This document shows positions 14,935 through 56,090 of a stretch of DNA of 64,000 bases, piece by piece. The notes under the pieces were generated by a model. That model saw nothing but the letters and a program-made list of their open reading frames with translations. It was not told the origin of the DNA and did no database searches. The translations under genes were made by a program, and so were the position numbers. This DNA is from Halorientalis regularis (GTDB lineage Archaea; Halobacteriota; Halobacteria; Halobacteriales; Haloarculaceae): contig NZ_JALJCL010000001.1 in the NCBI RefSeq assembly GCF_023698535.1, positions 248,001-312,000 on the forward strand, written 5' to 3'. Positions within the stretch are counted from its first letter, which is position 1. Every line of letters begins with the position of its first letter.

Positions 14935-15009
14935 AGCGGGATGGGATAGCTCGGAGATTCCGGCGGGCTCATAACCCGCAGATCGGTAGTTCAAATCTAC
15001 CTCCCGCTA
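14935..15009 (+). tRNA. Initiator tRNA-Met (CAU)
   Basis: AGCGGGA at 14935-14941 pairs with TCCCGCT at 15002-15008, discriminator A at 15009. The anticodon stem has three G-C pairs (GGG CTCATAA CCC), the mark of an initiator, with CAT at 14970-14972. The T-arm reads GTAGTTCAAATCTAC. No intron. No encoded CCA. A near copy of the last 21 bases follows 134 bp downstream. Confidence 0.96.
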
Positions 15010-15143
15010 CTTTTCGACGTGAATAACACGGCGAGCACGCGTAGCCTGTGCTCGCTTTCATGAACGTCGAGAGTCTCTGTGTCGATTCGACGTAGGGAGT
15101 GGAGCAGAGCGGAAGAACCGCGGTTCAGATCTACCTCCCGCTA
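15010..15143 (+). repeat. tRNA-iMet trailer with duplicated tRNA 3' end
   Basis: GTTCAGATCTACCTCCCGCTA at 15123-15143 copies the tRNA end at 14989-15009 with one mismatch. Between them are a nested hairpin, outer TCGACGT/ACGTCGA and inner GCGAGCAC/GTGCTCGC, and at 15081-15094 a partial inverted copy of the T-arm (GTCGATTCGACGTA against GTAGATTTGAACTA). The copy ends 2 bp before the stop of the convergent RNase J gene. The same layout follows tRNA-Ser and tRNA-Thr in this window. Confidence 0.8.
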
Positions 15144-48180: not shown

Positions 48181-48264
48181 GGTGGGATAGCGAAGTGGCC
48201 TAACGCGCCTGCCTTGAGAGCAGGTGTCCTCACGGACTCAGGGGTTCGAATCCCCTTCCCACCG
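48181..48264 (+). tRNA. tRNA-Ser (UGA)
   Basis: GGTGGGA (48181-48187) pairs with TCCCACC (48257-48263), discriminator G at 48264. Positions 8-9 are TA. The anticodon loop CTTGAGA gives TGA at 48215-48217. The long variable arm (TGTCCTCACGGACTCA) marks a type II tRNA. T-arm AGGGGTTCGAATCCCCT. No intron. Confidence 0.94.
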
Positions 48265-48376
48265 CTTCTTCGCGAACGCACGTGAGCGGAGAGCGGTGCA
48301 CGTGGATTTTAACCCTGCCGGTCGCAGCGCGAACGGAGTGAGCACGTCTGGGCGTAGTTCGATCGCCGTCCCACCG
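48265..48376 (+). repeat. tRNA-Ser trailer with degenerate copy of the tRNA 3' end
   Basis: TTCGATCGCCGTCCCACCG at 48358-48376 resembles TTCGAATCCCCTTCCCACCG at 48245-48264, 113 bp earlier, with one gap and few mismatches. Between them GGATTTTAACCC near 48304-48315 resembles the inverted T-arm (GGATTCGAACCC), and CACGTG occurs on both sides of AGCGGAGAGCGG. This is the same order as after tRNA-iMet and tRNA-Thr, but more decayed. Confidence 0.6.
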
Positions 48377-48446
48377 TATTCTGTCGCTCAGACGGGCTTG
48401 CAAATGCCGGCGCAACGCACACCGGACCGCGAACCGACCAAGACGT

Positions 48447-53769: not shown

Positions 53770-53843
53770 GCCAGGGGAGCTTGGGCGGTCCAAGCACCCG
53801 ACTTGTAATCGGGAGTTCGTGGGTTCAAATCCCACCCCTGGCT
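53770..53843 (+). tRNA. tRNA-Thr (UGU)
   Basis: GCCAGGG (53770-53776) pairs with CCCTGGC (53836-53842), discriminator T at 53843. Anticodon stem CCCGA/TCGGG with loop CTTGTAA, anticodon TGT at 53804-53806. T-arm GTGGGTTCAAATCCCAC. No intron. Head of the repeat array that follows. Confidence 0.96.
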
Positions 53844-54295
53844 CCTTCGTCAAGTAAAACGAGACGAAGAGCCGCTGGTGGGATTTGAATCAGGGAGCGG
53901 AAGGTGAGCGAATGCGAACGGGAGCGACCGTGGTTCACTATCCCACCCCTGGCTTCGACGCGCTCACAACCCGTGAGCGCGGCGAGTCGTCTGGGATTTG
54001 AATCAGGGAGCGGGAGGTGAGCGAATGCGAACGGGAGCGACCGTGGTTCACTATCCCACCCCTGGCTCTTTCGTCGAGTCTCACGAGACGAAGAGCCACT
54101 GGGATTTGAACGAGAGGAGTCGCAGCGGCCGAACAGAGTGAGGCCGACCGTCTCCGCGTGGTTCACTATCCCACCCCTGGCTTCGACGCGCTCACAACCC
54201 GTGAGCGCGGCGAGTCGTCTGGGATTTGAATCAGGGAGCGGGAGGTGAGCGAATGCGAACGGGAGCGACCGTGGTTCAATATCCCACCCCTGGCT
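53844..54295 (+). repeat. Regular array of tRNA-Thr 3'-end copies with alternating hairpins
   Basis: Copies of the tRNA end (GGTTCA-nn-ATCCCACCCCTGGCT) lie at 53932, 54045, 54160 and 54273; with the tRNA's own at 53821 the steps are 111, 113, 115 and 113 bp. After each of the first four direct copies comes a hairpin and then an inverted T-arm (TGGGATTTGAA). Hairpin types alternate: B (GGCT-CTTTCGTC/GACGAAGAGCC), A (CGCGCTCAC/GTGAGCGCG), B, A, and a fifth, truncated B. The linker AGGTGAGCGAATGCGAACGG is shared by units 1, 2 and 4. No CDS. Confidence 0.9.
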
Positions 54296-54351
54296 CTTTC
54301 GTCGAGTCTCACGAGCTCCGTTCTTTCCGATGCCGGCCGGGTAGCTGCGGG

Positions 54352-54630: not shown

Positions 54631-54833
54631 CGTCGTGCCGTAATGACGGGCACCTTAAAATTCATTCTCATTTTACAGTCGTCTCACGAGATACGAGCCT
54701 TATTTATAGAAAATGCGAGGCGAAAACCCACGGCTTCAGCCGTGGGATGAAGCCGACGACTGGGAATCAAACCACGCCACAGTAGCAGGCTGACTCCCCA
54801 ACGATTAAAAATTAAAGGCTTTACGTATAAGAT

Positions 54834-56090
54834 ATGGAAGTGCGGCGTACTGTCCCCGTCACGCTTGACGTGGAGAGTGACGATGCCGCGCTTCTCGAAG
54901 ACACCGTTGACACGTTTCTCTGGTGCGCTCAATACGTCGTAGACCACGCTTTCCAAGGCGAATACGTCACTACCAGCAAGACACAGTTAGATGACGAAAC
55001 CTACGACGACGTGCGAGAAGCCACAAACGGGTTCAACGGCGGTCTTGTCCAAGCGGCCCGAAACAAGGCCGCTGAAGCCTGTAAGAGCGTCGTTGCACGC
55101 TGGAAGAACGGGAAGAAGGCGTCAAAACCGCGTATAACCTCGCCGCATATCGTCTACGACCACCGTACCGCCACGTTCCACGACGACTACGTATCTCTCG
55201 CCACCACAGACGGTCGGATTGAAGCCGACTACGTGCTACCGGACGGCGACAGCGACACGCCCCACGCTGAATACTTGTTCTCTGACGAGTACGAGACCAC
55301 TGGGGCAGAGCTTCATCGGAAGCACGGCGAGTGGCAACTTCATATCCACTGCAAGAAGGAGATAGAGACTGACACGCCGGAGCGGGCAACGACCACGCAC
55401 GGAACGGTGCTTGGCGTTGACCTCGGTGTGAACAACCTCGCTGTCACCTCAACAGGCACGTTCTGGACTGGCGACGAGTTCGACCACTGGCGGCGTGAAT
55501 ACGAGAAACGTCGTGGCGACCTGCAGGAGTGCGGAACGCGGTGGGCACACGAGAATATGCAGGCAGTCGGACGTAAAGAAGAAGGCCGGTTCAAAATGAC
55601 GCTTCACCGGATAGCGAACGAACTTGTCACAGAAGCCTGTAACCACGAGTGTTCGGTGATTGCGTTCGAGGACTTGAGCGATATTCGGGAACGTACTGGT
55701 GCGTCGTGGGGACACAAATGGGTCTTCAACCGCCTCTACGAGTACGTCGAATACAAAGCCGCAGAGTACGGTATCACAGTGGAACAGGTTGGCCCCGAGA
55801 ACACGTCGCGTCGGTGTTCACACTGTGGGTTCACGCACCCTGCCAACCGTGAGAGTGAGTCGTTCGAGTGCCAGAAGTGTGGCTACCAGAACCACGCTGA
55901 CTACAACGCAGCCAAGAACATCGGCCTACGGTATCTTCGTCGCAACCAAACCGGGGGCGACGAAGGCGCACTCTTGGGCGTGCGCCTGAACAGCGGGATA
56001 GTGAATGTGAATGGTGAGTATGAATCACCTGCCGAGATCTCGGCCAGAACGGGAGTCCACGCTGAATCCCACCCGTTTACGGGTGGGTAG
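54834..56090 (+). CDS. tnpB: TnpB RNA-guided nuclease
   Basis: 418 aa. The RuvC triad is intact: Asp196 in [11 protein letters not shown], Glu279 in [13 protein letters not shown] and Asp356 in [12 protein letters not shown]. Zinc ribbon Cys328/331 (CSHCG) and Cys346/349 (CQKCG). N-terminal wedge domain (about 1-180) with a CxxY start ([11 protein letters not shown]). TnpB cuts DNA next to a short motif under guidance of an RNA from the element's right end and aids retention of the element. ATG 54834 follows an AT-rich leader. Confidence 0.95.

Follow-up and report, generated by a model that had tools for sequence, protein, structure and literature searches.

An array of tRNA-Thr 3'-end copies in Halorientalis regularis as a probable member of a haloarchaea-wide family of RtT-like repeats behind tRNA genes

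We describe a class-wide family of structured repeats in Halobacteria which is tied to tRNA genes, copies the 3' end of the resident tRNA and is turned over unit by unit. The array analysed here follows the tRNA-Thr(TGT) gene within a window of 64,000 nucleotides of Halorientalis regularis (contig NZ_JALJCL010000001.1, positions 248,001 to 312,000), the window being the whole stretch of DNA under analysis. The layout equals that of the RtT repeats of E. coli, and the array probably represents a locally expanded member of a family of tRNA-trailer repeats that is spread across haloarchaea, is transcribed, and gains or loses units by recombination between the direct copies of the tRNA end. Transcription and processing of the units, as well as any role for the host, are parts of this model that we infer.

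Layout of the tRNA-Thr array

The 3' end of tRNA-Thr(TGT) occurs five times, counting the gene itself, with starts from 53821 spaced by 111, 113, 115 and 113 bp, as had been correctly given in a preliminary description of the sequence. The discriminator base of the tRNA is T53843, placed by acceptor pairing. The parts of the array are listed below, with hp1 and hp2 being the first and second hairpin of a unit, I the inverted T-arm and D the direct copy of the tRNA 3' end.

53770..53843, plus strand: tRNA-Thr(TGT) gene (reported by ARAGORN as 53770-53845; RF00005, 59.4 bits)
53822-53843, plus strand: template end D, the last 22 nt of tRNA-Thr
53844..53872, plus strand: hp1 of unit 1, type B (from inverted repeat I2 and fold)
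53876..53889, plus strand: I of unit 1 (TGGTGGGATTTGAA), complementary to the tRNA T-arm (from inverted repeat I2)
53890..53931, plus strand: hp2 of unit 1, module a (TCAGGGAG...CGACCGT), a module common to many other tRNA loci
53932..53954, plus strand: D2, direct copy of the tRNA-Thr 3' end
53955..53988, plus strand: hp1 of unit 2, type A (from inverted repeat I9)
53991..54002, plus strand: I of unit 2 (direct-repeat family D4 of the repeat search)
54003..54044, plus strand: hp2 of unit 2, module a (direct-repeat family D2 of the repeat search)
54045..54067, plus strand: D3, direct copy of the tRNA-Thr 3' end
54068..54096, plus strand: hp1 of unit 3, type B, with tandem G.A pairs (TTTCGTC-GA-GT..AC-GA-GACGAAG; tandem-GA hairpin scan, 54069-54093)
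54099..54110, plus strand: I of unit 3
54111..54159, plus strand: hp2 of unit 3, a module other than a (GAGAGGAGTCGCAGC...GACCGTCTCCGCGT), with a tandem-GA hairpin at 54126-54146
54160..54182, plus strand: D4, direct copy of the tRNA-Thr 3' end
54183..54272, plus strand: unit 4 (hp1 of type A, I at 54219-54230, hp2 of module a), a near-identical duplicate of unit 2
54273..54295, plus strand: D5, direct copy of the tRNA-Thr 3' end
54296..54315, plus strand: fifth hp1, type B, truncated, end of the array

A hairpin and then an inverted T-arm come after each of the first four copies, and the long stem earlier proposed for unit 1 corresponds to inverted repeat I2 (53824-53844 / 53869-53889), which is 86% complementary. 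The T-loop is inexact in the copies, reading TTCACTAT or TTCAATAT compared to TTCAAAT in the tRNA, and the second hairpin of unit 3 differs from that of unit 1. A trailing hp1 as at the end of this array closes arrays, or stands alone, at other loci too (Leu-CAG, Leu-TAA). The inner stems do alternate B-A-B-A-B with the last one truncated, a pattern previously described as covariation-like. However, a 159-nt block is present twice in the array, 228 bp apart and with 99% identity, so that units 2 and 4 are near-identical and the alternation mostly reflects this two-unit duplication instead of independent covariation.

The RNA fold of the array region is far more stable than that of shuffled sequences (z = -7.7), and Rfam models yielded nothing above the gathering score over the array except the tRNA. 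A 113-aa ORF on the minus strand (window 53825-54166) covers the array and has no Pfam match, probably being a spurious product of the T-arm copies. The interior of the array is free of a transposase, as had been stated, but an IS605-type TnpB gene starts ~0.5 kb 3' of it (window 54834-56090; Cas12f1-like_TNB, E 7e-24), with a hairpin, CCCACGGCTTCAGCCGTGGG, at ~54727-54746 on its 5' side.

Own-end copies behind the tRNA genes of the genome

We found a copy of the tRNA's own 3' end (at most 5 mismatches of 22, within 250 bp) downstream of 24 of the 44 chromosomal tRNA genes at offsets of 75-185 bp, whereas the same search upstream of these 44 genes returned none. The distribution in this search across tRNA genes is bimodal, and 20 of the 44 tRNAs are without a recognisable own-end copy. 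Permutation of the tRNA ends among the loci gives 0.1 matches per genome, compared to 39 T-loop-bearing and 6 further copies observed; the spacers between copies measure 30-226 bp. In a genome search with one unit, all matches beyond the tRNA-Thr locus lie behind other tRNAs (Leu-TAA, Ser-GGA, Val-TAC), whose own 3' end in each case forms the terminal repeat. Two further tRNA genes of the window are followed by a unit.

15011..15143 of the window, plus strand: one unit behind tRNA-Met(CAT) (tRNA at 14935), with own-end copy GGTTCAGATCTACCTCCCGCTA
48266..48378 of the window, plus strand: one degenerate unit behind tRNA-Ser(TGA) (tRNA at 48181), opening with a tandem-GA hairpin

The hp1 core occurs at 28 sites of the genome (at most 2 mismatches), 25 of which lie behind tRNAs or a truncated tRNA copy, and the reversed hp1 pattern used as control has no site in the genome. 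The hp2 modules are common to different isoacceptors in 441 of 489 hp2 pairs.

Two further observations concern the tRNA loci. A compact cluster of ~20 tRNA genes with a virus- or plasmid-like layout (contig C4, 111.0-117.8 kb, L042) has no units, its own-end matches being at chance level. Another family of repeats linked to tRNA genes, CCACTTTTT..hairpin..GCAAAAACGTGGGCGAAAA..GTGAACCG..GGATGC, is present in this genome (L045, L056, L021, L023, L032, L030) and in genome G035 (L332), and in some cases closes with 13-15 nt copied from the resident tRNA, limited to the 3' strand of the T-stem plus the acceptor strand.

Distribution of the family across genomes and replicons

The unit family is found at >30 isoacceptors throughout Halobacteria. 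When 84,980 species were scanned for the combination of I and module a, the matches listed comprised 80 loci. Of the module-a sites among these matches, 54 are haloarchaeal, of which 51 immediately follow a tRNA gene and share its orientation and the other 3 lie at locus edges, and none of the 26 non-haloarchaeal matches listed lies directly behind a tRNA gene. Across the class, 24 of 30 genomes retain a unit at tRNA-Val(TAC) while its stems change, these genomes deriving from the best BLAST hits of 59 genomes and not from a random sample. A haloarchaeon of another family carries a unit at 9-10 of its 20 tRNAs. Outside Halobacteria, but within the same phylum, 1 of 39 tRNAs is affected, by a simple duplication: at a tRNA-Ala (L286, genome G087) the 3' end and trailer are duplicated 117 bp on, without the haloarchaeal unit.

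The unit architecture was present in none of 50,697 phage records or IMG/VR contigs, and the plasmids searched gave one weak partial match only. We thus rejected a virus or plasmid as carrier of the units, none having been found in these collections except for this weak plasmid match.

Copies track the resident tRNA and units turn over as wholes

At positions of the tRNA ends that vary among species, D carries the base of its own species' tRNA in 945 cases and that of another in 41. I likewise matches the T-arm of its own tRNA better than those of other tRNAs (9.74 compared to 8.34 of 12 positions, with 7.0 for shuffled sequence; p 4e-19). Where D2 has diverged, I retains the state of the tRNA in 44 cases compared to 8, showing that the pairing between I and D2 is not strictly maintained. 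We do not take these counts as proof that I follows the tRNA and not the copy, since an ancestral tRNA state would by itself also produce them.

The gene upstream of tRNA-Thr, encoding a GNAT acetyltransferase, is conserved at 34 of the 37 loci examined, whereas the downstream gene is common to only three of the 37. Within the genus, the tRNA-Thr locus carries 0 to 4 units, and this unstable presence speaks against an essential role. Copy numbers differ from those of the sister species (G020) at many orthologous tRNAs, e.g. 5 vs 1 at Val, 1 vs 4 at Leu-TAA and 3 vs 0 at Gly-GCC. At the Leu(CAG) loci of the two species the flanks align and the difference is exactly one unit (tRNA-hp1-I-hp2-D-hp1'-gene compared to tRNA-hp1-gene). 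By such comparison the step size of gain or loss is whole units, for which the simplest account would be gain or loss of entire units between D (or hp1) repeats, in either direction.

This variability within the genus and the turnover at the 3' side of tRNA-Thr next to a conserved 5' neighbour are also what one would expect of small non-autonomous mobile elements at tRNA 3' ends, according to which each unit would be an insert of ~90 bp flanked by D1 and D2 as att-like or target duplications, and a recombinase supplied in trans would recognise the hairpins, with no host or RNA function. D covers the usual T-arm attachment block from T-loop to discriminator, hairpin modules are shared by different isoacceptors, and small mobile repeats of ~110 bp, SMR-A, are known from haloarchaea (PMC3119063). 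An insert of 1.6 kb at tRNA-Gly(CCC) fits as well (L244 2490-4320; contig C5 74.49-76.32 kb): a unit is followed there by ~1.4 kb encoding an HSDR_N-type protein, and then by a 5'-truncated tRNA copy, an identical hp1 and I, and a different hp2 module. This insert is an integrated element, the duplicated block covering the tRNA half, hp1 and I. Yet a single recombinase would have to recognise more than 30 different ends, copies hardly ever occur other than at tRNAs, the phage, viral and plasmid collections are devoid of units but for the weak match, and an inverted arm matching its own tRNA is not expected in a simple insert, leading us to regard the mobile-element reading as rather unlikely. 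The earlier proposal of stacked integration scars at a tRNA att site agrees with the att-like boundaries of the copies and the one integrated element overlapping a unit, but does not account for a conserved unit body common to >30 isoacceptors.

The close match of D to the resident tRNA could alternatively mean that the copies serve as decoy attachment sites, offering viruses and plasmids a harmless landing place that spares the tRNA, with the hairpins spacing or presenting the decoys. At four tRNA loci, another hairpin element (GGTTCAAAT|TCCGACCGAC..GTCGGTCGGCG...ACT|T-stem-acceptor) indeed splits a D copy at the T-loop, namely at Asp (L029) and Gly-CCC (L059, ~290-370) in this genome and at Ser-GGA (L410) and Gly-TCC (L392) in the sister species; a functional tRNA is never split in this way. 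An insertion into a tRNA gene would however be lethal and hence unseen, so that interrupted copies are expected even without selection for decoys. The T-loops of some copies have moreover drifted, and I, the tandem-GA stems and the strand bias described below are left unexplained, making the decoy reading quite improbable.

Hairpin structure, covariation and strand bias

Tandem G.A hairpins (outer stem - GA - 2 bp - loop - 2 bp - GA - stem) are present in 78 cases as the tRNA-sense type and in 3 cases as the complementary type. All seven outer-stem positions pair more often than in partner-shuffled controls (z 3.2-7.6, n = 92), the pairs being of many types, in a test anchored on the loop-side sequence and not on stem pairing, which ignores kinship and for which part of the sample was found by motif; with an antisense-type anchor (n = 10) no signal was seen. 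Across loci the stems covary around the conserved tandem G.A pairs, and only on the tRNA-sense strand; the earlier suggestion that the structure is kept while the bases change is borne out by comparing loci and genomes, although not by the A/B alternation of this array.

The sense strand folds better than the antisense strand after dinucleotide control in 133 of 144 units, and departures of I from I-D pairing favour G.U over A.C. Folding with DNA parameters gives the same strand bias in weaker form, so that RNA is not told apart from single-stranded DNA; the sense-strand bias could instead reflect insertion in a fixed orientation or a folded single DNA strand, and the A-to-G excess could be a transcription-linked mutation bias.

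Folding of released units recovers hp1 in 124 of 124 and the pairing I:D2 in 118 of 124, the latter count being weak evidence when taken alone because pairing persists in 104 of 124 units of a swapped-D2 control. When the tRNA end is included, the minimum-energy folds join I to the tRNA (D1) in 79 and to D2 in 41 of 124 cases. We considered D2 as a T-arm mimic for RNase Z and rejected this, the 5' strand of the T-stem not being kept in the bases before GG.

The mutually exclusive pairings I:D1 and I:D2, together with the class-wide retention at tRNA-Val while stems change, would suit a selected RNA switch or processing signal, with tRNA folding, 3' cleavage or termination depending on which partner, the tRNA T-arm or the following D, is paired with I. 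Against such a switch, which we hold to be unlikely, stand the 20 of 44 tRNAs of this genome lacking an own-end copy, the loss of whole arrays in sister species, and the pairing not being restored upon changes in D2. Neutral slippage during replication, duplicating tRNA ends in tandem and leaving the structure unselected, would explain the simple case in the non-haloarchaeal relative and the 228-bp duplication within the tRNA-Thr array, but neither covariation, conserved tandem-GA motifs and strand bias nor the modules shared across the class. The slippage reading is already disfavoured by these features and very improbable.

Relation to RtT and other known repeat systems

Among the interpretations offered in the preliminary description, tRNA-like structured transcripts come closest, as the layout is equal to that of the RtT repeats (RF00391) of E. 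coli tyrT. RtT is processed into a stable RNA and has a role in the stringent response. Behind tyrV of E. coli K-12, copies of the 19-nt tRNA-Tyr end lie at +160, +338 and +516, each tyrT unit contains an exact 10-nt inverted copy of the T-stem, and the annotation places the small RNA rttR at these repeats. In both systems the units are arranged in tandem directly 3' of a tRNA gene and on its strand, and each ends in a copy of the resident tRNA's own 3' end, which in E. coli is exact, 19 nt long and repeated with a period of 178 bp. Both have the D-I-D layout, the inverted T-stem copy (GGGGAAGGAT in E. coli) being paired with the direct copy in the Rfam consensus, and the E. coli unit also includes a tandem-GA hairpin sequence of the type CGAGC-N-GCGAG on the sense strand (CGAGC-GAA-GCGAG in the consensus). 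The E. coli repeats differ in being bacterial, seen here at one tRNA operon and built of a longer unit, in a D that begins in the T-loop and includes CCA, and in that an equivalent of hp1 was not recognised. The RF00391 covariance model has no match in this genome and, among the controls, matches only E. coli, so that the link to RtT is one of layout and not of proven homology.

About half of the tRNA genes of Methanopyrus kandleri are followed, at a distance of ~10 bp, by a palindrome (PMC5217627). It shares with the haloarchaeal units its archaeal origin, its palindromic nature and its position behind ~half of the tRNA genes, but is a short motif for which neither a tRNA-end copy nor tandem units are described (PMC5217627). 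The SMR-A repeats of Haloquadratum, whose mechanism is unknown, are likewise haloarchaeal, ~110 bp long, endowed with inverted repeats and free of a transposase, but target IS605-type transposons and PATEs instead of tRNA genes and lack a target duplication (PMC3119063). We rejected MITEs or SMR-A as an assignment, since the copies neither spread over unrelated targets nor keep fixed terminal inverted repeats, the ends varying with the resident tRNA. Attachment sites of tyrosine recombinases at tRNA genes, reviewed in PMC8371274, likewise have a second, direct copy of the tRNA 3' end beyond the tRNA gene with an element in between, but these elements are kilobases long and carry an integrase gene, compared to ~90-bp structured, gene-free spacers here. 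An att scar of this kind was rejected, the spacers of 30-226 bp being too short for an integrase gene and consisting of shared hairpin modules.

A REP-like family of dispersed intergenic palindromes, as had been suggested before, does not apply either: the motifs are not scattered, with 25 of 28 hp1 sites and, among the matches listed, 51 of 54 haloarchaeal module-a sites behind tRNAs. The array resembles CRISPR in its regular direct repeats with spacers, but the spacers form a recurring family of related structured modules and the repeats are host tRNA ends, in agreement with the earlier statement that it is not CRISPR. Our search of the open-access literature found no description of these post-tRNA units, by which priority is thus not established.

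A model for unit structure and turnover

Our data support a model in which a unit of ~115 bp is built of hp1, I as the inverted T-arm of the resident tRNA, hp2, and D reaching from ~G53 to the discriminator base. Recombination or slippage between the (near-)identical D repeats of ~22 bp, by enzymes whose existence the model presumes, would add or remove whole units, the tRNA gene always staying intact. Located in the tRNA trailer, the units would be transcribed together with the tRNA. On the sense strand, folding predicts hp1 as an independent hairpin and I as pairing with the next D around hp2, as in the Rfam structure of RtT, or alternatively with the tRNA's own T-arm, these two pairings being mutually exclusive. 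By the parallel to RtT, cleavage at the tRNA 3' end would turn the trailer into a string of ~115-nt structured RNAs with tRNA-like 3' ends. Such RNAs may be of use to the host, or the units may be satellites that it tolerates.

A more far-reaching version is possible, although we put it forward tentatively: the units may constitute an undescribed class-wide family of structured RNAs, in which each tRNA grows, trims and re-templates its own RtT-like string, the inverted T-arm is bistable, the tandem-GA hairpins possibly bind an L7Ae-like kink-turn protein, and the architecture is the same as that of enterobacterial RtT by convergence or common descent.

Significance

RtT repeats had seemed to be a curiosity confined to a single E. 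coli operon. Their build being present behind roughly half of the tRNA genes throughout an archaeal class suggests that some process acts generally on tRNA 3' ends. The units add candidate non-coding RNAs and bear on the instability of the 3' side of tRNA genes, and their arrays yield spurious reverse-strand ORFs in annotation such as the one over the tRNA-Thr array. For testing a general process of this kind, the haloarchaeal arrays constitute dozens of natural replicates.
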